Assembly: GCA_024998685.1 (NCBI GenBank) | Contig: JACOEH010000031.1 | Span: 1-56,161 of the forward strand | Reading direction: 5' to 3' | DNA: 56,161 bases | Source of the DNA: Nitrospira sp. | Lineage (GTDB): Bacteria; Nitrospirota; Nitrospiria; Nitrospirales; Nitrospiraceae | Shown: positions 27,369-47,474 of the stretch, in pieces | How the letters are laid out: each line of letters opens with the position of its first letter | Position numbering within the stretch: the stretch's first letter is position 1 | Translations under genes and position numbers: made by a program | The notes under the pieces: model-generated | Told to the model about the DNA's origin: nothing | Database searches by the model: none | The model's input: the letters and a program-made list of their open reading frames with translations, nothing else

Positions 27369-28904
27369 TCATCGAAGAAGATCGGACAGGTCGACATTGC
27401 TCGATAGATGATCGGCCCACCGATCGAGTTCACACTGTGATCGAGAGGTAACCGATTTCGAAGCCTGAATATCAAGAAGAGGAAGCCTTTTCCTCATGCG
27501 GGCACGATTGAGCCAGACACGACGAAAGCCAGGCTCATCAAACACACCATGGATGTACGTGCCCCACACAAGACCGTCTTTTCGAATGGCTCCATCGAAC
27601 TCTTCTTCTTTCGTCGCGTTCGAGAGGCGAGTTTCCTCACTCAGTGCTGAGTGACGGTGGTGAACTCTAAAACAGGGAAGTTCGTCGTTCACGCGTTGCG
27701 TGACGCCCATATGAATTTGATATCCCCGGATCAAGAGCTGACCTCCCACGAAGACATTTTCCATGCTGGCTTCCACTTGCGTGGTGCACTTGGCTTGCGT
27801 GAGCTCCGTCTCTATGTTCAAGTAGCCGAGTCCGCCACTCATCCCGCCTTGCTCAACCGCGCAAGGATCCGAGATTGTTCGGCCGAGCATTTGATAGCCG
27901 CCACAAATACCGATCAGTTCTCGCCGACTGTGCAGATGATTATTCAATGCGGAGACATATCCTTTTTCCTTCAAATAGGAGAGATCTGCCAGCGTATTTT
28001 TGCTGCCGGGGATTATCACGACGTCGGCCTCGGCAAGCGTGGAGGGCGAGGTGACATATCTCAAGGCAACATCTGTTTCCGACGCTACAATATTAAAATC
28101 GGTAAAGTTGCTCATATGCGGCAGTAAAATGACGGCAATATTGACTCGGCCGGATACAAAACGTGTTTGTGGATGCCGGCCGAGATCGAGGCTATCTTCT
28201 TGATCGAGCATCAGATCACGAAGAAACGGCACAACACCCAACACCGGCAGCCCACTTCGTGTTTCCAAGAACCTCACCCCGTCGGCAAATAACTTGGCAG
28301 CACCACGGAATTTATTGATGATGACGCCACAGACTCTGGCGCGTTCGTCAGACTCCAGCAAATCCAACGTCCCGAGGACTTGAGCAAAGACACCGCCCCG
28401 ATCGATATCGGCGACCAGTACGACCTGCGCATCAGCCAATTTGGCAACCGACCAATTGACCAGATCATACTCACGAAGGTTGACTTCTGCCGCACTGCCT
28501 GCCCCTTCAATCACAAGTACTTCATACTGCCTGGCCAACCGAGCGTAGCTTTCTTCGACCACAGACCAGAGCCCCTGTCGACCGTCGAAGTACGCCGATG
28601 CCTCACGCTTCTCCAACACCTTGCCAAGGGCTACAACCTGCGAGCAGTTATCAGATTCGGGCTTGAGTAGGATCGGGTTCATATCAACATGCGGCGGAAT
28701 CCCGCAGGCCTCTGCCTGCAGGGCTTGAGCTCTTCCAATTTCATGACCCTCAGGAGTGACGAACGAATTCAATGACATGTTTTGAGCTTTGAACGGTGCC
28801 ACACGGACACCGGAACGATAAAGCAGTCGACAGATCCCGGCGGCGATCAAACTCTTCCCTACATCTGAGCCAGTACCGAGAATCCCAATCGCTCGCGCCT
28901 TCAT
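27369..28904 (-). CDS. cobQ: Cobyric acid synthase CobQ/CbiP
   Basis: CobQ amidates four side chains of adenosylcobyrinic a,c-diamide using glutamine and ATP. The N-terminal dethiobiotin-synthetase-like domain has the P-loop GTGSDVGKS and the AQNMSLNS motif; the C-terminal class I amidotransferase domain has nucleophile Cys in IGICGGYQM and His in TYIHGVFD. The start is placed at the ATG of MKARAIGILG because it overlaps the cbiZ stop (ATGA) and has AGGAG upstream; the frame is open for 17 more codons. It is the last gene of the cobalamin operon. The length of about 511 residues is normal. Confidence 0.92.
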   Translation of the reverse strand: MKARAIGILGTGSDVGKSLIAAGICRLLYRSGVRVAPFKAQNMSLNSFVTPEGHEIGRAQALQAEACGIPPHVDMNPILLKPESDNCSQVVALGKVLEKREASAYFDGRQGLWSVVEESYARLARQYEVLVIEGAGSAAEVNLREYDLVNWSVAKLADAQVVLVADIDRGGVFAQVLGTLDLLESDERARVCGVIINKFRGAAKLFADGVRFLETRSGLPVLGVVPFLRDLMLDQEDSLDLGRHPQTRFVSGRVNIAVILLPHMSNFTDFNIVASETDVALRYVTSPSTLAEADVVIIPGSKNTLADLSYLKEKGYVSALNNHLHSRRELIGICGGYQMLGRTISDPCAVEQGGMSGGLGYLNIETELTQAKCTTQVEASMENVFVGGQLLIRGYQIHMGVTQRVNDELPCFRVHHRHSALSEETRLSNATKEEEFDGAIRKDGLVWGTYIHGVFDEPGFRRVWLNRARMRKRLPLLDIQASKSVTSRSQCELDRWADHLSSNVDLSDLLR

Positions 28905-29623
28905 CGGTGCATCTCCTGCCGCTTTCTTGCTCTGGCTAAGCCACGGGAGACGCAATTGGAGACTGCTCTTCCGACCAGTGCGCCCATAATCGTATGAGTC
29001 CCGCTGTAGGTGTGCAGCGGTCCCTCACCGCGCAAGCGGCATGCAATGACGACTGCATCGGTACCCGTCCCAGTCGCAAGGTCTTTTCCTTTCCAACTCG
29101 GTATGGTGTGGTCACGCAAGACGCCGGTCTTTGTCTCCGTGGCCACCTGCACCGCGCCGACCATGGCGGAGGTCGAGAGACTCCCACTCGTGACAAGGAT
29201 GAGATTGATCGTTCCGACTCTCGTCGAATGTGTTTCCTTCCGACGAGCAGAATGCAGCGGCCACTCTCCGGCACGGACCGCATTCGTGATGCCGACTGTG
29301 GCAAAACACTCTACCCAGAGTATCCCAGCCGTGACTCGGGACATGACAAGCTGTGTCATCGGTACTGCAGTCATGAGTCCGACAGTGTGGATTCCGATGC
29401 TGAGCTGTGAAGCCAGTTTCCTCAAGTAACGCGCTGGATCAGGAAAGTGTCCATTCATAACGAGGTTCGCCTCGACTTGATGATTGATGATGTGCGAGGC
29501 AGACCGGAATCCACCCCCCTGCGGTGCGGATGAAAGTACGCGCCGTCGGCCACCGAGATGGATCACGAGCGTGCGTCCAATCACCTGATGTCGAGTGCGG
29601 ACATGTCTGGAGGTTCCCTTCAT
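28901..29623 (-). CDS. cbiZ: Adenosylcobinamide amidohydrolase CbiZ
   Basis: CbiZ cleaves the aminopropanol bond of adenosylcobinamide or of corrinoids with foreign lower ligands to give cobyric acid, allowing them to be rebuilt with dimethylbenzimidazole. The 240-residue protein has the family pattern: VTAGILWVECFATVGITNAVRAGE, then ILVTSGSLSTSAMVGAVQVATETKT, and TGTGTDAVVIAC. The start at 29623 overlaps the cobD stop (ATGA), and the stop overlaps the cobQ start in the same manner. It feeds the CobD/CbiB and CobU/T/S steps encoded next to it. Confidence 0.88.
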   Translation of the reverse strand: MKGTSRHVRTRHQVIGRTLVIHLGGRRRVLSSAPQGGGFRSASHIINHQVEANLVMNGHFPDPARYLRKLASQLSIGIHTVGLMTAVPMTQLVMSRVTAGILWVECFATVGITNAVRAGEWPLHSARRKETHSTRVGTINLILVTSGSLSTSAMVGAVQVATETKTGVLRDHTIPSWKGKDLATGTGTDAVVIACRLRGEGPLHTYSGTHTIMGALVGRAVSNCVSRGLARARKRQEMHR

Positions 29624-30735
29624 TGCAACACTTCGTGGTGAAGGAGGTTCGACAAGGCTTGGATGAGCCGATCGTTCTCTTGCGGAGATCGTACGGCAAG
29701 TCGGATCGAACGAGTGTTGCATCCTGGAACGGATGAACAATCTCGAACCAGCAGTCCCTCATTTCGCAACTGCCCCGTCAATTCACGCGCGTGCCATCCA
29801 CGAGGCAACTCCATGAGGAAATAATTGGCATAGGTCGGCAACACTGAACAGCCGGGCAAGGCAGCAAACAATCCTTTCAACCGTTCGCGCTCTCCTGTCA
29901 TAAATCTCAGACTTTTTCGTGCATGTGCCGCATCGCTCAGGGCAGCCAGTGCGGCGATCTGTCCCATCACGCTGATCGACCAAGGCGGCAGCTGCCGTCG
30001 CAATCGCCCGGCAACTGTACGCGTTGCCACCGCATATCCCACCCGCAGTCCGGGCAAGGCATAGAATTTGGTCATGCTGCGTAAGACGACGACATGCGGC
30101 CAGGACGCCGCCTGCGGGAGAACGGATCGCTCTGGACAATAGTCGGCAAACGCTTCGTCGATCACCAGCCAAAGACCTTGCCGCCTGACGATGGTGGCTA
30201 ACCGCGCGATATCATCGGCTGAGCAGGCTTGTCCTGTCGGACTATTGGGATGGCAGATGACGATTCCATCAATGGAGAGGCCGTCGCTTTGTCCCGTTTT
30301 CATCAGCCGACAGAGACGATCGATCGGAATGGCATATTGGTCTTTTCGGTCTGAGTAGAGGGCTGTGACCTGTCCTCCAGCTCGTTCCATCGCAGCGGCA
30401 TATTCGGAAAAAGTGGGCTGGACGACGAGGAGCCGATGAAGCCCCAATGCACGAGGAAGTACATCGATCAACTCAGTGGAACCATTACCGACCACGATCT
30501 GTTCCGGATCGATACGCCAGAACGTGGCCAGCGCCTGCCGTAGATCCCAACAGTGGGGATCGGGATAGTGGCTCAACAGATACCTGGATGCCATGATGGC
30601 TTTCCAGACTTGCGAAGAAGGGCCCAGCGGGTTGATACTGGCGCTGAAATCAAGAATCTCGGCGAGATCGCGGTTCAGCTCTCGTGCGGCACCATAGATA
30701 TCCCCGCCATGCAAACACGCTTTCAGGCGAGGCAT
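29620..30735 (-). CDS. cobD: Threonine-phosphate decarboxylase CobD
   Basis: This PLP enzyme of the aspartate-aminotransferase fold makes (R)-1-aminopropan-2-ol phosphate, the linker between corrin ring and nucleotide loop. The N-terminus HGGDIYGAAREL and LDFSASINPLGPS are hallmarks of CobD rather than HisC. The Schiff-base lysine is in LRSMTKFYALPGLRVGYA, and ICHPNSPTG carries the conserved Asn. The length of 371 residues is normal. It overlaps cbiB upstream by 13 bases and cbiZ downstream by four. Its product is used by CbiB, encoded directly before it. Confidence 0.92.
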   Translation of the reverse strand: MPRLKACLHGGDIYGAARELNRDLAEILDFSASINPLGPSSQVWKAIMASRYLLSHYPDPHCWDLRQALATFWRIDPEQIVVGNGSTELIDVLPRALGLHRLLVVQPTFSEYAAAMERAGGQVTALYSDRKDQYAIPIDRLCRLMKTGQSDGLSIDGIVICHPNSPTGQACSADDIARLATIVRRQGLWLVIDEAFADYCPERSVLPQAASWPHVVVLRSMTKFYALPGLRVGYAVATRTVAGRLRRQLPPWSISVMGQIAALAALSDAAHARKSLRFMTGERERLKGLFAALPGCSVLPTYANYFLMELPRGWHARELTGQLRNEGLLVRDCSSVPGCNTRSIRLAVRSPQENDRLIQALSNLLHHEVLQ

Positions 30736-35553: not shown

Positions 35554-36158
35554 AATTCAACTCCCGGCTGCGCCTTAATGCCGTTTCGGAAAGGATGCTT
35601 TACTTGCTTCATCTCCGTCACCAGATCGGCCTCTTCCAGAAGTGCCGCTGGGCCCCCTCTACCGGTGATCACCACATGTTGCATCGTTGGACGATCGCGA
35701 AGCACCGGTAGGACCTCTTCAAGACGGACATAGCCATATTGCAGCGCGATATTGAATTCGTCGAGGAGGACCATGGCATAGGAAGCATCGCGCAGAAATT
35801 CACAAGCCGTTTTCCAGGCCTGTTGTGCGAACTGCGTATCTCGCGCGCGATCTTGAGTTTCCCAGGTATAGCCTTCTCCCATCCGGAGGAAGATGACCCG
35901 ATCGCCAAAAGATTTTAGAGCACGCTCTTCCGCAGTGTCGATGACGCCTTTGATGAATTGCACCACCGCGACCTTCCAGCCATGCCCGATACAGCGCAAC
36001 ACCATTCCAAGCGCGGCAGTCGTCTTTCCTTTGCCGGCGCCGGTGTAAACGATCAAGAGACCTTTCTCCTGTTGTGCCTCCTCAATGCGCCGATCAACCG
36101 ACGCCTTGAGGCGTTCCATTCTCGATGTATGTTCGCCTTGATCCATCATGACGATCAA
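35550..36158 (-). CDS. cobO: Cob(I)yrinic acid a,c-diamide adenosyltransferase CobO/BtuR
   Basis: This P-loop adenosyltransferase has about 202 residues. The motif VYTGAGKGKTTAALG, the WKVAVVQFIKG strand, and LLDEFNIALQYGYV are the family hallmarks. A PduO-type enzyme with the same chemistry is encoded 0.9 kb further on. The start overlaps the cobB stop (ATGA), and the stop overlaps the CWC gene start. ATG at residue 4 or 5 could be the true start. Confidence 0.92.
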   Translation of the reverse strand: MIVMMDQGEHTSRMERLKASVDRRIEEAQQEKGLLIVYTGAGKGKTTAALGMVLRCIGHGWKVAVVQFIKGVIDTAEERALKSFGDRVIFLRMGEGYTWETQDRARDTQFAQQAWKTACEFLRDASYAMVLLDEFNIALQYGYVRLEEVLPVLRDRPTMQHVVITGRGGPAALLEEADLVTEMKQVKHPFRNGIKAQPGVEF

Positions 36159-37549
36159 CCCTCATTCATGAACATCCGAACGGTGGATTGACGGGCAGCG
36201 TCCACCAGCGCTGTCCCGACTCGCGATTGGCCGGCAAAGTGCAAATGGGTGTAGAGCGCCAACACGTTGTCTTTTGTGAGTCCGTCCTGCCCCTTTGAGC
36301 TATCTCCTACATCGCTCAGTGCACAGGAGTACTGCAGCGGCCCTCTCGCAATCAGCGTGGAATAATGGAACTCATGGCCCCGTGCCGTGACGCCCACTTC
36401 ACCAAGGATGCAGCGTCGTGTACATTCCACCGTTCTATACCCCAATGTGAGGCTCTGTTTCCGCATGACCGCTTCGGCCGGAAAGATGCCGGTCATTTCA
36501 TGCGAACGGCCTTCGAAATCGCGGATCGATTCCGTAAGATACATCAACCCGCCGCACTCCGCATAAATGACGCCGCCGCGCTCGGCAAACCGCTTGACGG
36601 CTGCTCGCATGGTTGCGTTCTTGGCCAATGCTTCGCCATACAATTCCGGATATCCGCCGCCAAGATACAGCATCTCGACATCCGGCAATGCCTGGTCGCT
36701 TAACGGAGAAAACGTCACGACTTCAGCACCGGCAGCTTCCAGCACTTCAAGATTGTCCGGATAGTAGAAACAAAACGCCCGATCGTGCGCAACACCGATG
36801 CGAACGGTACGACCGTGGGTTTTCATCACCGGCTGAGAGAACGCTTCTGATAACGTGCCACATGAATGGGCAAGTAACTCGATACGATCCAGGTCGACGG
36901 TCTCCAGCGCTGCTTTGGCCAATCGCCGGTAGAGCCGGCTATCGTCTTGTTCCATTGCCGTGACCAACCCCAGATGCCGATCCGGAATTGCCGTGGCGAC
37001 ATCCGAACGCAAATATCCAACGGGAACCACGGCTGTTTCTTGTTCCACCGCCGCCTTCAATAGGCGGTAATGTCCCTCGCCTCCAACACGATTGAACAAA
37101 ACCCCCGCAACACGCAACGCAGGATCGAAACGTGCGTAACCCGTCACCATCGCCGCAGCGGAACGAACCATGGCGCTTCCATCAACAACCAGCAGCACCA
37201 GCGCACTCAATTGCTTCGCCAATTCTGCCGTGCTGCCGACCTCGTTCACCGGCGAGCTCCCATCAAACAACCCCATCATCCCCTCGATAATGGAGATATC
37301 CGCATCGGCTGCGGCGCGAGCGAAGATCGAGTGATTAAGCTCCGGTCCGAGCATCCACCCATCGAGATTTCGAGACAGGCGGCCTGTGGCTGCTCGGTGA
37401 TGACTTGGATCGATAAAGTCGGGCCCGACCTTGAACGGCTGGACTTGGCGGCCTCGCTCGCGCAAGGCCGCCAGGATCGCCAATGTGGCCGTCGTCTTTC
37501 CGACGCCGCTTGATGTCCCGGCAATAACCAGTCGGGGATAATGCTTCAT
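36155..37549 (-). CDS. cobB: Cobyrinic acid a,c-diamide synthase CobB/CbiA
   Basis: This glutamine-dependent amidase of 464 residues amidates the a and c side chains of cobyrinic acid. Its N-terminal P-loop is AGTSSGVGKTT, followed by VGPDFIDPSHH and GMMGLFDGSS. The C-terminal glutaminase domain carries YLGGGYPELY, the nucleophile Cys in YAECGGLMYL, and HEFHYSTL. It implies that cobyrinic acid itself can be used, which is a biosynthetic intermediate, yet no ring-building genes are visible in the window. It overlaps cobO by four bases and starts just after btuB. Confidence 0.92.
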   Translation of the reverse strand: MKHYPRLVIAGTSSGVGKTTATLAILAALRERGRQVQPFKVGPDFIDPSHHRAATGRLSRNLDGWMLGPELNHSIFARAAADADISIIEGMMGLFDGSSPVNEVGSTAELAKQLSALVLLVVDGSAMVRSAAAMVTGYARFDPALRVAGVLFNRVGGEGHYRLLKAAVEQETAVVPVGYLRSDVATAIPDRHLGLVTAMEQDDSRLYRRLAKAALETVDLDRIELLAHSCGTLSEAFSQPVMKTHGRTVRIGVAHDRAFCFYYPDNLEVLEAAGAEVVTFSPLSDQALPDVEMLYLGGGYPELYGEALAKNATMRAAVKRFAERGGVIYAECGGLMYLTESIRDFEGRSHEMTGIFPAEAVMRKQSLTLGYRTVECTRRCILGEVGVTARGHEFHYSTLIARGPLQYSCALSDVGDSSKGQDGLTKDNVLALYTHLHFAGQSRVGTALVDAARQSTVRMFMNEG

Positions 37550-37555
37550 CCGACG

Positions 37556-39580
37556 CTAGAGCGGCAGATCATAATTGATCCGCACGCCTCCAAAAATAGA
37601 GCGAATGGGGGTTCCGAAGAAGAGGACCTCCTCATACTTCTCGTTGAACATATTATCCAAACGCACATAGGCCTGGACTTGCTTTGTGACATCATAACTG
37701 GCGGACAGATTCCAGACGAATAGCGAAGGGATCGATCCTTCATTCCCAACGTTGTTAAACCGCTGGCCAAAGTAGCGTCCCTCCAGATTGGCGCGCAGAC
37801 CTTCAATGGGCTGATAGCTGATGATCGTCGTGACTTGATGCAGCGGCCACTTTGGAAGACGCGTATCCGGGCCGTTCGTCAGATCGCGCGTGGCCGCGTA
37901 GGTATAATGGATTTGTACATCTAAGCTCTTGACCCAGCGTCCGTCACGATACAATTTCAACTTCGTGTTGACTTCCACACCTTGCGCACTGGCTAACCCC
38001 GCATTCTGCGCACAGAATCCGAACGAATTAGGAGCCGTGCATACGGCCGGATCAAACACCGACAAGATAAGGTTACGATAGCGCGTCCAAAAATACCCGA
38101 CACTGATACTGCCTCGATCATGAGGCAGCGTCTGTTCGATGGCCGCATCCAACGCCTGACTCTTTTCCGGTTGCAGATTTGGGTTGCCAAAACCCGGGAA
38201 AAACAATTGATTGATCGTTGGCGCACGAAATCCAGTGGCATAACTCCCGCGCAACTTTGTACCGGTTTCCTTGACCAGATACCCACCCGTCACCCGATAC
38301 GTTGTGGCGCTTCCGAAGACGTTGTAAGCGTCATATCGAACGCCGGCGGTTCCGAACACACGATCCCAAAGATTCAACTGGGCTTCTCCAAATCCCGCAT
38401 TGCTGCTGAGAGTCTTGTTCGAAAGGGTAGCCGTCTGAGTGAGTAGATCTGTATTGTTGCCGATCTGCTCTCGAAACTGATAGCCGGCCGTCAGCAAGAG
38501 CGGTTTGCCGACCTGAACATTGTGCTGCCATTCAATCCGGTTGCTCGTCGTCTCGATTTGAGACCTGAAGGGGAACCCGATTGGTCCTGTCACTCCGGTC
38601 ACCAGATCTCGCTCGAAGGTTCCTCCATCGCTGAGGAGAGAGTCGGTCGCTCGCGACAAGGTCAGCTTTTGCGACCACCAATCGGTAATCGGCTGTGCAT
38701 AGTTGCCCGCGAAAACGTATTGTCTGTCTTTTGATCCCGCGCCGAATACATCGGCTGGATCGGAGGCGAATGTGACGGGATTGAACGCAAATCCGTCATA
38801 ACTCACAATTCCGTTCAGCCAGCGGAAACTAAACTCCAGTCTCCCCTCTTTGGGAAGGTCCGCTCCCAGCCGAACCGATCCTTGCCAATTGTGGTATCCG
38901 TCGCGCTCAGCCGCCCCACGCCGATAATTGATCGCCGAGAAACCGGCCGTGTCCCAGCGGGTGATTGATCCGGAGAAATCTATAGGCCCCTTCTTACCGG
39001 ATAGACTGGCTCCGCCTCGAATGGTATTGAAGGATCCGTATTCAGTAAACGCGGAGATATTGGGTGTGTCCCGTCCTCGCTTGGTCGTGATGTTGATGAC
39101 ACCGCCCATGGCGTCCGAACCCCAGAGCATGCTTTGGCTTCCACGCAAAACTTCGATCCGCTCGATATTGTCCGAGGTCAGGTTGGCAAAATCGTAACTG
39201 CCGATGGTGGCGCTGTTGACGATGGCGCCATCGATCAAGACGAGCGTTTGCTCCGGTGTTCCTCCGCGCATCCGTACGTCTACGGCAGTGCCGGGCCCGC
39301 CGCTTTGGTTGACTGAAAGTCCTTGTGCCCAGCGAAGCGCGTCTGCAACGGTTTTGATTTTTCGCTGTTGCATCTCCTCGCCGGTGATGACCTCGACGGC
39401 GCTGGTGACTTGTTTGGCCGGGGTGGGAGTCTTGGTCGCGCTCACGACGATGTCCGGAGCCTCAAGCTCTGGTTGGTCGGCCATCGCGACTTCCTGAGCC
39501 GAAGCCGGATATGGGACACCCACGACACACGGGAGAAGAACACATAGACGAACAACACGACGAGCTCCGAACCTTGACAT
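37556..39580 (-). CDS. btuB: TonB-dependent vitamin B12 receptor BtuB
   Basis: This outer-membrane receptor takes up corrinoids using TonB energy. After a signal peptide (VRLCVLLPCVVGVPYPASA), it has the TonB-box region PDIVVSATKT, a plug domain (MQQRKIKTVADALRWAQGL; IERIEVLRGSQSMLWGSDAMGG) and a C-terminal 22-strand barrel ending in an aromatic-rich strand. The length of about 675 residues is typical. The ATG at 39580 has GGGAGG upstream. The cobalamin riboswitch directly before it, the B12 neighbours and the btuFCD genes upstream make B12 or another corrinoid the substrate. Confidence 0.9.
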   Translation of the reverse strand: MSRFGARRVVRLCVLLPCVVGVPYPASAQEVAMADQPELEAPDIVVSATKTPTPAKQVTSAVEVITGEEMQQRKIKTVADALRWAQGLSVNQSGGPGTAVDVRMRGGTPEQTLVLIDGAIVNSATIGSYDFANLTSDNIERIEVLRGSQSMLWGSDAMGGVINITTKRGRDTPNISAFTEYGSFNTIRGGASLSGKKGPIDFSGSITRWDTAGFSAINYRRGAAERDGYHNWQGSVRLGADLPKEGRLEFSFRWLNGIVSYDGFAFNPVTFASDPADVFGAGSKDRQYVFAGNYAQPITDWWSQKLTLSRATDSLLSDGGTFERDLVTGVTGPIGFPFRSQIETTSNRIEWQHNVQVGKPLLLTAGYQFREQIGNNTDLLTQTATLSNKTLSSNAGFGEAQLNLWDRVFGTAGVRYDAYNVFGSATTYRVTGGYLVKETGTKLRGSYATGFRAPTINQLFFPGFGNPNLQPEKSQALDAAIEQTLPHDRGSISVGYFWTRYRNLILSVFDPAVCTAPNSFGFCAQNAGLASAQGVEVNTKLKLYRDGRWVKSLDVQIHYTYAATRDLTNGPDTRLPKWPLHQVTTIISYQPIEGLRANLEGRYFGQRFNNVGNEGSIPSLFVWNLSASYDVTKQVQAYVRLDNMFNEKYEEVLFFGTPIRSIFGGVRINYDLPL

Positions 39581-39584
39581 GAAA

Positions 39585-39605
39585 ACCTCCCTTTGACTCG
39601 AAGGG
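39585..39605 (-). promoter_or_regulatory. Possible Shine-Dalgarno sequestering hairpin before btuB
   Basis: On the minus strand CCCTT and AAGGG flank a 7-base loop (CGAGTCA), and the right arm contains the start of the btuB ribosome site AAGGGAGG. It lies between the riboswitch B12 box and the ATG and could hide the ribosome site when cobalamin is bound. The five-pair stem is short, so this is a hypothesis. Confidence 0.35.
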
Positions 39606-39780
39606 TGTCGATAATCCCGGCAGTTGGGTCTCCTGACTTGCGGCTCGTCGCGTCTCTGCGCCTTCCCATGTGCCGAGGCACACAGTGACATCTTGCAGAG
39701 TCACTCCCCGCTTACAGTGGCGGCACCGTGATGGATTTGCACCATCTTCCCCGTCGCTGACGGTCTGGTTTAAAGAATCC
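39605..39780 (-). promoter_or_regulatory. Cobalamin riboswitch upstream of btuB
   Basis: On the minus strand the class signatures appear in order: GGTGCAAATCCATCACGGTG, then CCGCCACTGTAAGCGG, then a GGGAAGGC element, and finally the B12 box as AGTCAGGAGACCcaaCTGCCGG (about 39617-39640). It ends about 36 bases before the btuB ATG. Binding of adenosylcobalamin should lower expression of btuB and the 12 genes that follow. The boundaries are approximate. Confidence 0.9.
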
Positions 39781-39813
39781 CTCCAGAAAAATGTTACGCA
39801 CCCGGTTTCTTCT

Positions 39814-39858: not shown

Positions 39859-40626
39859 TCAATGTCGAATGTAATCGATGGAGTACCTTGCGGAACGTGG
39901 CATCATGCCGTCGAAATCCCAATTGAATGTGAGCACGGCGGATTTCTTGGAGGTGTGTGCGAGCAGCCGCGTACCGTTCTGTACGACCAGACTCGGAGCG
40001 TTCCAAAAATCCAGCGTTTGTTCTGCCCCGGTTCTGTTACAGACAATCAACGGAAGTCCTGTTTCATGAGTCCGCTGCTCCCATTCCCCGTTCGGACCGT
40101 GAATGCCCGGGCCCCAGGATGCCGGCGACACGAACATTTGCGCACCTTCAAACGTAAGCGCTCGGGCAATATTCGATGTATAGACGTCGCTGCAGATGAG
40201 TATTCCTACCTTGACCCCATCGCACTCGATCGGAGCGATAATGTCCCCGGGACTCGACCATGACCGCGAATCGCTTACCACGTTGATCTTGCGATGTTTA
40301 CCCAGAATCTCACCGGTCGGACCGATGACAAACACCGAATTATAGAACCGGTTGCCTTCCCGCTCAGGGCACCCGAGAAATACGGTTCGTTTCAATGTTC
40401 CGACCAGCTTGCAAACCTGCTGCATCCATGGGTCGGGTTGCGGCTGTATCCAGTCGGACCCGACGTGTGCGAACTGAAGTCCACAGACCGCAAGCTCCGG
40501 TGTCACGATCCACTCGGCACCTTTTCCGGCAGCGTGTTTGATGGCCTCGACAATCACGTATCGGTTCCGCTCGATTGCCCCGGGAACTGTTTCGAGATGA
40601 AGCAGCGCGATCTTGCCCGTTCTCAT
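39859..40626 (-). CDS. Nitrilase-superfamily carbon-nitrogen hydrolase in the btu operon
   Basis: This 255-residue protein has the nitrilase fold with all three catalytic residues: Glu44 in WIVTPELAVCG, Lys113 in GKHRKINVV and Cys145 in ILICSDVY. It should hydrolyse an amide or nitrile in the cytosol; the substrate cannot be read from sequence. The ATG at 40626 lies one base after the btuD stop, so it is co-transcribed with btuFCD under the first cobalamin riboswitch. This suggests a role on corrinoid amide side chains or on cyano-ligands, or as an unrelated passenger; I know of no established B12 function for the family. Confidence 0.8.
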   Translation of the reverse strand: MRTGKIALLHLETVPGAIERNRYVIVEAIKHAAGKGAEWIVTPELAVCGLQFAHVGSDWIQPQPDPWMQQVCKLVGTLKRTVFLGCPEREGNRFYNSVFVIGPTGEILGKHRKINVVSDSRSWSSPGDIIAPIECDGVKVGILICSDVYTSNIARALTFEGAQMFVSPASWGPGIHGPNGEWEQRTHETGLPLIVCNRTGAEQTLDFWNAPSLVVQNGTRLLAHTSKKSAVLTFNWDFDGMMPRSARYSIDYIRH

Positions 40627-40627
40627 A

Positions 40628-41530
40628 TCACGTTCCACCGGACAGACCGCGTCCAGGAATCGTCACCCGAGGCAAGCCGGTAATCGGATGCCGATCCACC
40701 AACACCCGGCACCGATATACCGACTCCAATGCCCCCGGCTCAATGACCTCTTCAGGACGACCAAGCCGTACCACTCGGCCGCGATCCAACAACAGAATTC
40801 GATCGCAATACTGACTCACCAGATTCAAATCATGCGATACCAGAATGACAGTTAATCGGCTTTCCTCTTTCAGGCGGAGCAACACTGAACAGATTTCGAC
40901 CTGATGTTGCAGATCGAGAAACGCGGTCGGCTCGTCGAGCAACAACACCTTCGGCGTCTGGGCAAGCGCTCGCGCGATCATGGCCCGCTGCCGCTCTCCC
41001 CCGGAGAGATCCGTCACCGCACGATGCGCTAAATGGAGGATGTCCACCATCATCATCGCCTGCTCCGCGATGGTCACATCTTCTCGGCTCTCCCATCCAA
41101 ATCCGCCGCTCCATCGGCCATGAGGCCGATGAGGGAAGCGCCCCATGAGTACGGTTTCGGCAACAGTAAATGGAAACAGCTGCTGTGTGTCTTGTTGAAC
41201 GACACCGACAAGACGCGCGATCTCTTGTTGCGCCATCGAGGCTAACTCTTGTCCGAACAAGTCGATGCGGCCTTGCAGCGGGCGCATGAGCCTCGCCAGC
41301 ACTTTCAGCAAAGAGGTTTTTCCCGATCCATTGGGACCGACAATACCCAACACTTCACCTTCTTGAACGCAAAAGGAGACGTCCTCAAGAATCCATCGAG
41401 CGGCATCCGATCCTCGAGATCGGTAGCGGAACCGAACGGATTGCACGTCGTACGTCGGCCATGGCCGGAGGACGCCGACTGAACCGACGATCGCCGTCCG
41501 TGTTGATCGGCTGTCGGACAACTCACTCAT
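40628..41530 (-). CDS. btuD: Cobalamin ABC transporter ATP-binding protein BtuD
   Basis: This ATPase of an iron-siderophore/B12-type ABC importer shows Walker A GIVGPNGSGKTSLLK, signature LSGGERQRAMIARAL, Walker B LLLDEP and switch His in ILVSHDLN. The 301-residue length includes an N-terminal extension of about 25 residues with no known role. Its start overlaps the btuC stop (ATGA). The B12 assignment comes from the riboswitch and neighbours rather than the ATPase itself. Confidence 0.87.
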   Translation of the reverse strand: MSELSDSRSTRTAIVGSVGVLRPWPTYDVQSVRFRYRSRGSDAARWILEDVSFCVQEGEVLGIVGPNGSGKTSLLKVLARLMRPLQGRIDLFGQELASMAQQEIARLVGVVQQDTQQLFPFTVAETVLMGRFPHRPHGRWSGGFGWESREDVTIAEQAMMMVDILHLAHRAVTDLSGGERQRAMIARALAQTPKVLLLDEPTAFLDLQHQVEICSVLLRLKEESRLTVILVSHDLNLVSQYCDRILLLDRGRVVRLGRPEEVIEPGALESVYRCRVLVDRHPITGLPRVTIPGRGLSGGT

Positions 41531-42681
41531 GCCAAACGATCCTTTCGCCAGAGCAGGAGATACACGAAGAACGGCCCCCCGGCCAGGGCCGTAATGATGC
41601 CCACTGGAATCTCCGCAGGCGATATCATGGTCCGCGCAATCGTATCGGCACCCATAAGAAAGGTGCCGCCCACCAGAGCTGACGCGGGAAGAAGCAACCG
41701 ATGGTCCGCGCCTGTGACCAAACGTACCGCATGAGGAACGACCATGCCGATAAATCCGATCATTCCGCTGACCGACACAACCGCTCCTGTCACCAGTGCC
41801 GCCAAGACAAAGAGAGACCGCTTTGCCCGTTCCGTATCGATACCGAGAGTGCGAGCGGATTCTTCTCCCAACGCCAAAATGTTCAATGCCCGCATTTGGC
41901 CGAACAGGAGGACAAGGCCGATCGACAGATAGACGATGAGTCCGGCCAGACTGCCGTAGGTAGGGGCGGTCAACGTGCCCATCAACCAGGCCATCATCCC
42001 GTACGAACGATTCGGCTCCAGGATCGACGTAATGAACATGATCAAGGCCGAAAAGACGGCATTCAGAATCACCCCGGTCAACAACAGACTATGGATGGGC
42101 AACTGCTCATCGCTGGCGGCCATTCGATAGACGATCACTAACGCCAAGAGGCCTCCGGCAAATCCGCAAACCGGCAAAGCGGTTCCCCCCAAAAATGTGG
42201 TACCCGCTCCGAGCAAAACCCCCACCGCCGCTCCGAGCGCAGCTCCACTGGAAACACCAAGCACATAGGGATCGGCCAAGGGATTCCGCAACAGCGCCTG
42301 CAAGGCCACGCCCACCGTTGCCAAGGAACATCCGACCAAGAAACCCAACAGCATTCGTGGCATTCGGACCTGTAGCAGAATGGTGCTCGCGACATCCGCT
42401 GTTCCGTCGTCGATTTCCTTGCGGTGTATGGCGTCGACAAACACCCGCAGAATCTCGCCATACGCAATCGGTTGCGCGCCGAAGTGAAGACAGATGAAGC
42501 TGACCGCTACCGCTGTGAGGGCAAGAATTCCCAGCGTCGCCATCCAGCGGGAATTCGTGAGGATGGCGCCTTGAGCGACAATGCCGCTTGCCGAGTCCAC
42601 GCGACACGATTCGTTGGGCAAGACTCCGGCACACGAACCAGACTGAACCGTGGCAGGCCTCTGCTTCAAAAGGAACCTCAT
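41527..42681 (-). CDS. btuC: Cobalamin ABC transporter permease BtuC (FecCD family)
   Basis: This 384-residue inner-membrane permease has about ten hydrophobic segments. Family signatures include RMPRMLLGFLVGCSLATVGVALQALLRNPLADPYVLGVSSGAALGA-type sequence (residues ~105-150) and the GMIGFIGMVVPHAVRLVTG segment. It carries an unusually long N-terminus of about 45 residues (starting MRFLLKQRPATVQ), so a later start is possible. The ATG overlaps the btuF stop. It pairs with BtuD and receives corrinoid from BtuF. Confidence 0.87.
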   Translation of the reverse strand: MRFLLKQRPATVQSGSCAGVLPNESCRVDSASGIVAQGAILTNSRWMATLGILALTAVAVSFICLHFGAQPIAYGEILRVFVDAIHRKEIDDGTADVASTILLQVRMPRMLLGFLVGCSLATVGVALQALLRNPLADPYVLGVSSGAALGAAVGVLLGAGTTFLGGTALPVCGFAGGLLALVIVYRMAASDEQLPIHSLLLTGVILNAVFSALIMFITSILEPNRSYGMMAWLMGTLTAPTYGSLAGLIVYLSIGLVLLFGQMRALNILALGEESARTLGIDTERAKRSLFVLAALVTGAVVSVSGMIGFIGMVVPHAVRLVTGADHRLLLPASALVGGTFLMGADTIARTMISPAEIPVGIITALAGGPFFVYLLLWRKDRLA

Positions 42682-43745
42682 GGATGAACCGCGCCTTCGC
42701 CGGAACCGAACATTTCCGGATGGATGGCACGGGCGAGTTGTTCCAAGGCCTCGATGACCCGAGGGCCGGGACGATTCAATAAGCTGGAGGAGACTTCATG
42801 AAAACGCTGCTGCTTGACGGCCGAAAGCGAGTCCCAGCGCCGCCATTGCTGTTGCTCGCTGCGCGGCACCGTTTCCACTTCGCCACTGGGGAAGATCAAC
42901 ACCTCCGGATCGTCTTTCAGCACCGCCTCCATGCTCAGTTTCGGATAAGCAACACCGGCCTGTGCCGCAATGTTGATCCCTCCGGCGAGGCCGATCATTT
43001 GGTGGATGAAACTGCCCGGCCCCACCGTAATCAACGGCTGGCTGTTCAGCACATACAGCACGCGCCGTGCCGGCGATGTTTCGACTTTACGTCGAATCTC
43101 GGCGATGCGTTGCCGTATGCGCTGCGTCACTTCGTTGGCGGCCGAAACTTTCTCAAACATCTTTCCAAATGTATGAATTTGCAGCAGGATATCTTCCAAC
43201 GTTTGCGCGTCGAGAACGAAAAGAGGAATTTTCAGCTGCTCGAGCTTCGCCTGCAGATCAGGACGGAGAAAATCTTTGGGGGCAAGGACTAATTCCGGCC
43301 GTAGGATAATCAAGACTTCCGCACTCGGATTCGAATATCCCACCTTGGCTTTCGCTTTCGCCGCCGCCGGATAGTCACAAAACTCGGTCACGCCGACGAT
43401 CTGTTCATCCAGCCCGATCGCAAACAGCATTTCGGTAATACTCGGAGCGAGCGAGACAACCCGAGCAGGCGGCTTGGCGAGGTAGATCCTATGCCCGGCA
43501 TCATCCACAAACGATCGTGACGACACATGCGCCATAAAGGGCATGCCGGTGAGGATTCCCTGTGGCCGTCGCTTCATCTCACCATAATCTCCCTGCCCGC
43601 ATTCAGCGGCCTGTGCAAGAAACGCCGACAGCACCGCCACAAGACACATGCTCATGACGGGGCGATATCGACACCATGGTCTCAAAAGAAAAATCCCCAA
43701 GGCCTGAATAGACCCTGAGGATTGCACCCGCTTCTTCATCCTCAC
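42678..43745 (-). CDS. btuF: Periplasmic corrinoid-binding protein BtuF
   Basis: This is the substrate-binding protein of the corrinoid ABC importer. A hydrophobic export signal is seen at about residues 31-47 (MSMCLVAVLSAFLAQAAEC), so the first ~30 residues may be an overlong start; ATG at residue 31 (43655) is an alternative. The mature part has RVVSLAPSITEMLFAIGLDEQIVGVTEFCDYP, the class III binding-protein fold, and a helix-linked second lobe (VLYVLNSQPLITVGPGSFIHQMI). The riboswitch ends about 30 bases upstream. Confidence 0.87.
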   Translation of the reverse strand: MRMKKRVQSSGSIQALGIFLLRPWCRYRPVMSMCLVAVLSAFLAQAAECGQGDYGEMKRRPQGILTGMPFMAHVSSRSFVDDAGHRIYLAKPPARVVSLAPSITEMLFAIGLDEQIVGVTEFCDYPAAAKAKAKVGYSNPSAEVLIILRPELVLAPKDFLRPDLQAKLEQLKIPLFVLDAQTLEDILLQIHTFGKMFEKVSAANEVTQRIRQRIAEIRRKVETSPARRVLYVLNSQPLITVGPGSFIHQMIGLAGGINIAAQAGVAYPKLSMEAVLKDDPEVLIFPSGEVETVPRSEQQQWRRWDSLSAVKQQRFHEVSSSLLNRPGPRVIEALEQLARAIHPEMFGSGEGAVHP

Positions 43746-43777
43746 CCGCTCCCCAGCCTCGAGGGAACGACGGTCAA

Positions 43778-44003
43778 TTCTCCGAGCAGGTCTTCTGGCT
43801 CATGGTTCACCCTACTCCCCGGCCTTCCCATCTCTTCATGGACGTTCAACGTGAATCGTTACACGTTAATCGCAAAAAATTACGTATAACGATCAACGAA
43901 TAACGGTTAACGTCCTATCAAGACAGTGGCTCTACGGGTTTCGTCCCCATTGACAGCGGCGGGACCGCGAGGGATTCACACCCTCTTCCCTTACTCAGAA
44001 GTC
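43778..44003 (-). promoter_or_regulatory. Cobalamin riboswitch upstream of btuF, with an inserted hairpin
   Basis: On the minus strand the conserved parts are GGTGTGAATCCCTCGCGGTC with CCGCCGCTGT (about 43955-43990), GAGCCACTGTC, GATGGGAAGGC, GGAGTAGGGTGAACC, and the B12 box GAGCCAGAAGACCTGCTC (43783-43801). Between CCACTGTC and GATGGGAAGGC lies an AT-rich insert of about 70 bases that folds on itself. The core appears intact. The distance to the btuF ATG is about 30 bases, consistent with control of translation initiation. Confidence 0.88.
43841..43914 (-). repeat. AT-rich imperfect palindrome inside the riboswitch
   Basis: The stretch starts and ends with GACGTT and AACGTC and repeats CGTTA/AACG words (for example CGTTATTCGTTGATCGTTA against GTGTAACGATTCACGTTG). 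It can fold into one long imperfect hairpin around a TTTTTT loop. It resembles the small dispersed palindromic repeats found in many bacterial genomes. It sits in a peripheral, variable stem of the riboswitch. Confidence 0.6.
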
Positions 44004-44169
44004 ACAACGGACAGCACAATAGGAGACGGCATCAAAACTTGTCAAGCTCAATAATATTCGGCTTTTATTCAACTCTCTCGCGGAAGCGTCTGACGCTTGT
44101 GAGTACTCAGCAGGCTATGGTACTATCCGCACGCTGACTTCGATTCACTCAGTGAAAGGGAGTAGACCT
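44004..44169. other. Intergenic region between the btuF riboswitch and rpmB
   Basis: This gap must hold the divergent promoters for the btu operon and rpmB. Nothing can be marked with confidence apart from the rpmB ribosome site AAGGGAG at about 44157. Confidence 0.3.
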
Positions 44170-46851: not shown

Positions 46852-47055
46852 ATGGGGGCCGCGCTGAAGCATAAACATCTCGTGCTGGATCAACGGAAGA
46901 TTGACGCAGCGAAGCGCTACTTCGGGGTGGATTCTGAGCAGGAAGCGATCGATAAAGCACTGTCGCTGCTGATCGAGGAACAGAGGCTGAGCAAAGCGTT
47001 GCGCCCACTGAAGGGGATCTTGATGGGTGATGAGAGACCATGGCCCTACCGATAG
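46852..47055 (+). CDS. vapB: VapB-like antitoxin
   Basis: The 67-residue protein begins with a helix-rich region, HLVLDQRKIDAAKRYFGVDSEQEAIDKALSLLIEEQ, fitting a ribbon-helix-helix dimer, then an acidic/hydrophobic tail for toxin binding. The ATG at 46852 is preceded by GGGAGG. Its stop overlaps the start of the PIN-domain toxin gene by 16 bases. The 'D--ID-AK---G--SE-EA-D-AL' pattern is typical of antitoxins of PIN toxins. Confidence 0.78.
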   Translation: MGAALKHKHLVLDQRKIDAAKRYFGVDSEQEAIDKALSLLIEEQRLSKALRPLKGILMGDERPWPYR

Positions 47056-47474
47056 GCGGGAAGGTTCTACTCGACACCAATATCCTCATCGATTTCCTGC
47101 GCGCAGGCATGCACACACAATGGGTCTTAGGTGGCCATGGGACCGTCGTGCGGTTCATCTCGGCTGTCGCTCTGCTGGAATTGCGGCTCGGCGCTGACAC
47201 GCCCAAACGCAAGAAAGCCGTTGACCGGATTCAACAAGCCTTTCAAGCCGGGCGCACCCTCGGCCTGACACCTTCGACTCTCGATCATGCCGGACGACTC
47301 TTTCGAGCGATGTATGGAAACGCTTCTGGGTTAAACGATCGCCTGGGGCCTATGAACGATGTGCTCATGGCCCTGACGGCGAGAGAAATCGGCGCCACCG
47401 TAATCACGAATAACGTGTTGGAATTCCGCCGCATCGCCGGGAAAATCCCAGGTCTCAAAGTCGCAGCGCCCTAA
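47040..47474 (+). CDS. vapC: VapC-family PIN-domain ribonuclease toxin
   Basis: This 144-residue PIN domain shows acidic active-site residues Asp12 (LLDTNILID), Glu47 (ALLELRLG) and Asp107 (MNDVLMA). The fourth position reads TNNVLEF, with Asn where Asp is common. VapC proteins cleave tRNA or rRNA. It overlaps the antitoxin gene by 16 bases. Whether the Asn lowers activity is unknown. Confidence 0.85.
   Translation: MALPIGGKVLLDTNILIDFLRAGMHTQWVLGGHGTVVRFISAVALLELRLGADTPKRKKAVDRIQQAFQAGRTLGLTPSTLDHAGRLFRAMYGNASGLNDRLGPMNDVLMALTAREIGATVITNNVLEFRRIAGKIPGLKVAAP

Follow-up and report, generated by a model that had tools for sequence, protein, structure and literature searches.

A nitrilase-superfamily hydrolase of Nitrospira sp. 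(P0001) is encoded within the vitamin B12 uptake operon. Because members of its subfamily also accompany B12 genes in unrelated lineages, where the loci are arranged differently, the link of P0001 with B12 is, as far as genome sequences can tell, most likely functional and not incidental. We propose that the enzyme acts as an accessory amidohydrolase in the salvage or remodelling of imported corrinoids, with a corrinoid as the presumed substrate, and we give this reading a probability of roughly 0.45.

The gene lies on the minus strand of the window (the whole stretch of DNA analysed, 56,161 nucleotides; Table 1), and the plus-strand reading of the same positions contains an in-frame stop. The order of features on the minus strand is a cobalamin riboswitch, btuF, btuC, btuD, the nitrilase gene, a second cobalamin riboswitch, btuB, cobB, cobA, bluB, pduO, cobU, cobT, cobS, cbiB, cobD, the gene of a CbiZ domain protein and cobQ; some of these names rest partly or wholly on context, the B12 models of btuF, btuC and btuD having scored below their cut-offs and btuB, cobA, pduO, cobT, cobS and cobQ being named by means other than a profile. 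Since btuF, btuC and btuD overlap end to end and the nitrilase gene starts one base after the btuD stop, the plain reading of their positions is that the four genes form one transcript behind the first riboswitch. By position, the nitrilase thus belongs to the B12 regulon, taken as the units led by a cobalamin riboswitch. These results bear out the original prediction, made from the DNA letters, of a nitrilase-family hydrolase one base after btuD and under a B12 riboswitch. The presence of cobB and cobQ in the same locus, also part of that prediction, is supported by profile for cobB and by context for cobQ. The CbiZ domain, which holds the only PF01955 match of the genome, had not been mentioned in it. 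Elsewhere in the window, two ORFs have by eye the look of defence or toxin-antitoxin genes: one for a 901-aa helicase-like protein (47879-50584, minus strand) and a PIN-domain-like one (47040-47474, plus strand).

Table 1. Position and assignment of B12-related features and of the catalytic codons of the nitrilase gene in the window.
Feature	Position	Strand	Basis
Nitrilase-superfamily hydrolase (P0001)	39859..40626	-	255 aa from ATG, translation; PF00795 98.6 bits
Catalytic Glu44 codon	40495..40497	-	Computed from translation, read in sequence; invariant 100/100
Catalytic Lys113 codon	40288..40290	-	Computed from translation, read in sequence; invariant 100/100
Catalytic Cys145 codon	40192..40194	-	Computed from translation, read in sequence; invariant 100/100
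Cobalamin riboswitch ahead of btuFCD-nitrilase	43769..44024	-	RF00174, 86.5 bits, E 5.5e-20
Second cobalamin riboswitch, ahead of btuB and cob run, after nitrilase stop	39605..39799	-	RF00174, 92.4 bits, E 1.1e-21
btuF, substrate-binding protein	42678..43745 (ORF as listed)	-	NCBIfam TroA_like above cut-off; PRK03379 BtuF 117.9 bits, below cut-off of 234
btuC, permease	41527..42681	-	Best NCBIfam match B12 permease BtuC, 270 bits, below cut-off of 461; name also from context
btuD, ABC ATPase	40628..41530	-	Corrinoid ABC transporter ATPase model, 232 bits, below cut-off of 537; name also from context
btuB, TonB-dependent receptor	37556..39580 (ATG at 39580; ORF as listed begins 39691)	-	Identity from sequence and context
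cobB, cobyrinic acid a,c-diamide synthase	36155..37549	-	NCBIfam PRK01077, 509 bits, above cut-off
cbiZ, adenosylcobinamide amidohydrolase domain, same gene run	28901..29740	-	NF038002 98.7 bits, below cut-off; PF01955 180.1 bits (28949-29554), above cut-off
cobQ, cobyric acid synthase	27369..28955	-	ORF; name from sequence and context

Analysis of the P0001 protein revealed CN_hydrolase (PF00795; cut-off 23.2 bits, residues 5-233) as its only Pfam match at E up to 0.001, the CbiZ family PF01955 not being matched at this level. The complete Glu-Lys-Cys triad noticed in the original prediction (E44, K113 and C145) is intact, and it is identical in 100 of 100 different aligned sequences of the subfamily, as are W59, W123 and W171; W182 is identical in all of them except one stop-shortened copy. 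Repeats and the paralogue L036 were left out of this alignment, as were copies that are broken or cut at an edge (L032, L033, L067 and L098-L100); L152 and L163 stand outside the count, the triad being present in both by eye. A further mark of the subfamily is the pattern W-x-PG-x-HGP-x-GEWE...CNRTG. The window copy is one residue short at residues 54-55 (40462-40467), with HVGSDW in place of the HVVGSDW or similar of near relatives, and this one-codon difference is close to the invariant W59.

An AlphaFold2 model of P0001 (pLDDT 83, pTM 0.88, with low-confidence loops at 116-125 and 173-175) had the nitrilase fold, with a Z score of 27.0 to the PH0642 amidase structure 6ypa over 233 residues (rmsd 2.6). 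Among the closest solved folds were PH0642 amidase (Z 27), Bacillus formamidase (Z 26) and Nit2 (Z 26); the best matches include many amidases, and several solved relatives are, according to their structure titles, bound to small amides or amines (glutaramide, putrescine, urea). Seven NCBIfam families matched P0001, none of them near its cut-off. The protein fell far from the NAD+ synthase with its glutaminase part (PRK13981, the best of the seven with 69.4 bits vs a cut-off of 479, matching only profile positions 5-244 of 546), from N-carbamoylputrescine amidase (TIGR03381, 62.8 bits vs 410.25) and from nitrilases proper (nitrile_Arch, 63.7 of 500 bits; Nit6803, 29.4 of 502.6 bits). Action on deaminated glutathione, the Nit1-Nit2 role that the original prediction had kept in mind as a sign against its proposal, found no support either (NF033621, 54.5 bits vs a cut-off of 355).

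A scan of GTDB contigs returned 35 loci, 33 of which belong to the btu-linked clade of P0001 (L001-L033; by title 30 Nitrospira, 1 Nitrospirae bacterium and 2 Nitrosospira), together with two other nitrilases. In all the 33 clade loci, btuD is next before the nitrilase gene and/or btuB is next after it. We then considered 295 genomes of the phylum, 79 of which belong to the family Nitrospiraceae, and a clear score gap was observed in this search. The btu-linked clade was present in 29 of the 79 Nitrospiraceae genomes, with the gene or a remnant of it in the btu operon in 29/29 (L040-L067 and L099), again with btuD directly preceding and/or btuB directly following it. A second clade, 44-53% identical to P0001, was found in 31 of the 79 as a lone gene among varied unrelated neighbours. 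No genome carried both kinds of copy, and 19 carried neither. A tblastn search of the 31 solo loci with 16 B12 proteins of the window found no btu or cob gene, except for distant ATPase matches in L082 and L091; the neighbours were defined with a crude gene caller that resolved 29 loci, the centre gene being unresolved in L078 and L087. The genomes with a solo gene have btuC in 30/31 cases and cobalamin riboswitches in 30/31, with the nitrilase gene elsewhere in the genome. One genome (G212) has the solo gene without btuC or a detected riboswitch, yet CbiZ is present. A hidden riboswitch over the solo copies was also considered, and an Rfam scan at gathering score of 16 of the 31 loci found none within the stretch scanned. 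Scanning for the motif GCCACTG in 30 solo loci was discarded as a riboswitch test: seven have the motif 497-1490 bases upstream, but five of ten known riboswitches are without it.

The original prediction had taken a general linkage of the subfamily to unrelated genes as a sign against a B12 role. This applies to part of the subfamily, since 31 of the 60 gene-bearing Nitrospiraceae have a solo copy without B12 neighbours. Given that 17 of the 19 nitrilase-less Nitrospiraceae have btuC, and given the existence of broken copies, the nitrilase is an accessory component that B12 uptake does not need. Such dispensability, the stand-alone copies in Nitrospiraceae and in Peribacillus, and the mutual exclusion of btu-linked and solo copies, as if one does the other's job, are what would be expected if P0001 were an amidase of general metabolites, or a repair enzyme, that came under riboswitch control as a passenger of the btu operon and has no B12 role. 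There is a model for this situation in E. coli btuE, which encodes a peroxidase in the btuCED operon. Several of the observations presented below disagree with a passenger of this kind.

Altered operons were also observed in the family. The nitrilase gene is reduced to a 65-residue remnant in one btu operon (G070, L099) and frameshifted in another (G151, L067 and L100), with btuF, btuC, btuD and btuB in place; in G169 it has an inner stop, and in G258 only a piece was matched. In five loci (L002, L003, L006, L011 and L012) the nitrilase is 84-92% identical to that of the window and the adjoining btuF and btuC are only 58-65% identical (btuC only in L011), as if the nitrilase gene had kept its place through a replacement of the transporter genes.

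Genome searches were carried out in Nitrospirota and Pseudomonadota, and a single contig scan for close relatives extended beyond these phyla. A plasmid copy from Peribacillus (250 bits) was the only member among the best 15 of 289 matching plasmid records, the rest of these reaching 91 bits or less, and the same record alone was recovered from the plasmid collection at E 1e-15 with a copy of the pseudomonadotan genome G483 as query. Neither a B12 gene nor a riboswitch was found beside the Peribacillus copy. When the Peribacillus protein was used as query on 398 Pseudomonadota genomes, reached via a Neomegalonema locus, members were found only in G483, and G483 was again alone among 199 genomes of its order. 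This genome contains two copies (L109 and L110), each located 130-225 bases before a cobalamin riboswitch (132 and 131 bits) that leads genes for a TonB-dependent receptor, a DUF7676 protein, a membrane protein and CbiZ; the receptor and DUF7676 were assigned by Pfam on one copy and by tblastn on the other. The two loci are likely the result of one duplication, because mobile-element ORFs are nearby (an integrase and a group II intron piece by Pfam, transposases by eye) and the nitrilase copies are 78% alike. The duplicated corrinoid locus extends over L109 6897-13092 and L110 7091-12894, its TonB receptor being of siderophore type and its membrane protein having no Pfam match. Near the nitrilase locus of L109, an ORF at 5078-6142 (minus strand) matches PF02329, named histidine carboxylase PI chain, with 201.5 bits.

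When 385 genomes from the same class as G483 were searched with a profile, two more member genomes came to light (G1188 and G1117), and in the order of these two the subfamily gene was present in 25 of 76 genomes. Twenty-three of the 25 copies are directly before btuF, 17 in the order btuB-nitrilase-btuF, four as riboswitch-nitrilase-btuF without btuB and two at a contig start. The copy in L162 is located 2.2 kb ahead of a riboswitch-btuB operon, and that in L158 is second behind a riboswitch, after the gene of an AMP-binding enzyme. Of the 25 loci, 22 contain a cobalamin riboswitch; L146, L156 and L164, which make up the remainder, begin at contig edges. The subfamily is therefore linked with btuFCD and other B12 genes beyond Nitrospira, in unrelated lineages whose loci are ordered differently (riboswitch-btuB-nitrilase-btuFCD, and nitrilase-riboswitch-TonB receptor-DUF7676-membrane protein-CbiZ). 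As to other features of this order, a riboswitch directly precedes an AMP-binding enzyme gene, which would thus be B12-controlled, in L158 (5330-7437, PF00501), L154 (12006-14080, PF00501) and L163 (11607-13681, similar by eye), and an inverted repeat lies between the nitrilase gene and btuF in L120 (7576-7658), its microRNA match, far below cut-off, being surely due to chance. Several hits were rejected as other nitrilases: L034 (24%), L035 (38% over a fragment), L121 (94.9 bits vs 249 or more for members) and, in the class search, those in G331, G1167 and G1139 (90-104 bits). Phage hits corresponded to NadE or to partial and unannotated proteins, with at best 65 bits among the best five of six records.

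The distribution of the nitrilase was compared with those of CbiZ and BtuC. CbiZ is present in 60 of 60 nitrilase-bearing Nitrospiraceae vs 9 of 19 nitrilase-less ones (Fisher p 6e-8), and in 10 of 25 nitrilase-bearing genomes of the pseudomonadotan order vs 1 of the 51 others (Fisher p 3e-5), both p values ignoring kinship and being descriptive only. In the same order, a BtuC orthologue (490 bits or more) was found in 25 of 76 genomes, 24 of which have the nitrilase gene. Only one of the 51 genomes without the orthologue has it (G1260, whose contig ends inside btuF), one genome (G1225) has the orthologue without the nitrilase, and the nitrilase is absent from all nine genomes whose BtuC is diverged (261-274 bits). 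This association with BtuC, the presence of CbiZ in every nitrilase-bearing Nitrospiraceae genome, those with solo copies included, and the recurrence of the btu/cobalamin-riboswitch link in three distinct groups that differ in gene order argue against a general amidase or repair enzyme riding along, and P0001 reached none of the NCBIfam functional models. We consider such a passenger role improbable.

The co-occurrence of nitrilase and CbiZ indicates that the former is not simply a substitute of the latter. An enzyme that took over from CbiZ the cleavage of the aminopropanol amide, in cobinamide or in pseudo-B12, would employ the same bond chemistry and would suit the 15 of 25 nitrilase-bearing genomes of the pseudomonadotan order that are without CbiZ; moreover, DUF71-B12 is an example of such a substitute proposed elsewhere (PMC3541065). 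However, substitutes should exclude each other, whereas the two proteins coexist throughout the nitrilase-bearing Nitrospiraceae and even in the gene run of the window. We rejected this as the main reading and regard it as very improbable. In Rhodobacter, the bacterial CbiZ acts on pseudo-B12 but leaves cobalamin intact (PMC7733943), so there is room beside it for an enzyme with another preference.

A tree was built from 65 sequences (20 btu-linked Nitrospira, 18 solo, 23 from the pseudomonadotan order, two from G483, Peribacillus and one outgroup). The outgroup branch was very long and the root unsure, and only the unrooted split was used. A deep and well-supported split (97/94) separated the btu-linked Nitrospira and Peribacillus sequences from those of G483, the lone Nitrospiraceae clade and the pseudomonadotan btu group. 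B12-linked groups thus occur on both sides, the 18 solo copies branching with pseudomonadotan B12-linked ones, so the link is old or arose more than once: it may be ancestral and lost in the lone clade, or it may have arisen several times, and either history points to function.

The clades also seem to differ around residue 121. Amidases of the superfamily have as fourth catalytic residue a second Glu after the Lys. At the column of P0001 residue 121, in a loop of unsure alignment, E was found in 23 of 23 pseudomonadotan rows, in both G483 rows and in 32 of 33 solo rows (the other having Q); among the 62 rows of btu-linked Nitrospira the residue is L in 55, R in 6 and S in 1, P0001 having R, and Peribacillus has D. 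These rows include repeats of one gene, and one of the 33 solo-group rows is the paralogue L036. All the 62 btu-linked Nitrospira rows carry D119, and the solo and pseudomonadotan clades have G at 119 and E at 121. The difference at residues 119-121 could possibly reflect a change at the fourth catalytic position.

Inspection of protein starts revealed a Tat-like N-terminus (RR-N/D-LL, a hydrophobic run and mostly A-x-A) in 17 of the 25 copies of the pseudomonadotan order and none in the other eight, the RR motifs being recognised by eye; three of the 17 (L120, L148 and L150) have no ATG, GTG or TTG before the motif, so that CTG would have to serve as their start codon. Both Tat-like and non-Tat copies have B12 genes or a riboswitch beside them. 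The Nitrospira protein begins directly with the enzyme domain. If these starts are real, some homologues would be exported and the same enzyme would serve B12 loci on both sides of the inner membrane. This situation favours a substrate found on both sides, that is, the corrinoid, which is what the B12 system carries through both compartments.

The compartment also bears on whether the nitrilase, although a member of the B12 regulon, might act on a small companion molecule, such as a piece of the nucleotide tail or of the lower ligand, an amide encountered in the course of uptake, or the cyanide that cyano-corrinoids release. All the evidence of B12 linkage fits this possibility too, as do the small amides and amines bound in solved relatives, and cyanide dihydratases are found among the remote relatives of P0001 (27-29 bits). 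On the other hand, a cytoplasmic fragment would not explain the Tat-like starts, and the cyanide and nitrile families match only remotely, as noted above for nitrile_Arch. We regard the companion molecule as a tentative and rather unlikely substrate, and cyanide removal was kept only as a part of it. Two further candidates were dropped. A glutaminase feeding CobB or CobQ was set aside, as each of these two has a glutaminase domain itself. Involvement with by-products of BluB was abandoned: the pseudomonadotan copies adjoin btu genes, and the tblastn search, which included the bluB product of the window, lists no bluB there.

Returning to the corrinoid as substrate, the riboswitch before btuF would, by its position, govern the transcript, and the enzyme would be made when B12 is scarce. 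From the triad and the fold, a nitrilase mechanism can be expected, in which Cys145 would attack the amide carbonyl with the assistance of Glu44 and Lys113, leading to an acyl-enzyme from which water would free the acid. The substrate would be a corrinoid imported by BtuB-BtuFCD, the bond cut being either the secondary amide to which the nucleotide tail is attached or the primary amide of a side chain, and the product would feed salvage or remodelling by CbiZ, CbiB, CobU, CobT and CobS of the same locus. That the acyl group may be a corrin side chain is suggested by the place of the gene, its regulation, its recurrence and the compartment of the protein. The original prediction had named side-chain amides and the cyano ligand as possible targets; both are guesses, the cyano ligand being the less likely one.

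In weighing the action on corrinoids, we counted in its favour the btu linkage, the co-occurrence with BtuC and CbiZ, the G483 loci, the tree, the occurrence of copies with and without a Tat-like start, the triad and the amidase folds. Against it we counted the 31 solo genomes, Peribacillus, G212, the 19 nitrilase-less genomes, the broken copies, G1225 and the CbiZ-less 15 of 25, along with the facts that CbiZ already makes the obvious amide cut and that the superfamily cuts many small amides. A bolder and doubtful extension is that these proteins form a new cobamide-processing family: a nitrilase-fold amidase, cytoplasmic in Nitrospira and Tat-exported in some Pseudomonadota, that would cut an amide in the cobamides being taken up (in the simplest case, the tail amide of those that CbiZ spares) and would thereby widen the range of usable corrinoids. 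If so, the exported form would begin remodelling before the inner membrane is crossed.

Nitrospira are nitrifiers. One enriched Nitrospira is described (PMC12542776) as having btuBDCF without complete cobalamin biosynthesis pathways, and for this reason the processing of scavenged B12 may matter for nitrification. In addition, a previously unplaced hydrolase becomes a directly testable enzyme with a short list of substrates. A search of the open-licence PMC literature found no description of a nitrilase link to B12 uptake, cobalamin riboswitches or CbiZ, and by term search the word nitrilase was absent from the main text of the Nitrospira B12 papers examined. A B12-uptake role for the nitrilase family seems not to have been described previously.

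Regarding known systems, the P0001 group, if its proposed role holds, would join biotinidase and vanin pantetheinase, nitrilase-superfamily amidases that free a vitamin or vitamin precursor, as another amidase of vitamin salvage. These are animal proteins acting on biotin and pantetheine compounds, and to our knowledge they have no link to B12. PH0642 amidase from Pyrococcus horikoshii (1j31, 6ypa) and mouse Nit2 (2w1v, Z 26.2) have the same fold and Glu-Lys-Cys type as P0001 but are only 24-25% identical to it, and we know of no B12 link for their genes. Differential marks of the P0001 subfamily are the loop W171...HGPxGEWE and H10, the related chain 7ovg having Gln at the H10 position. In terms of role, CbiZ resembles the nitrilase as proposed here in being an amide hydrolase of B12 salvage (PMC3541065) that shares some loci with it; however, it belongs to a separate sequence family (PF01955), and the two co-occur without replacing each other. 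For DUF71-B12, a subgroup of COG2102, a B12 salvage role was likewise predicted from its place beside btuCDF and cbiB, with 75 of 102 members beside B12 transport genes (PMC3541065). DUF71-B12 is of a PP-loop ATPase family and, in contrast to the nitrilase, which co-occurs with CbiZ, it is anticorrelated with CbiZ in bacteria (PMC3541065). Finally, CbiR of Akkermansia is a cobamide-remodelling hydrolase from an unrelated superfamily that is often found beside transport or cobamide genes; it differs from the enzyme proposed here in belonging to the AP endonuclease 2 superfamily and in cutting a phosphoribosyl bond (PMC7733943).
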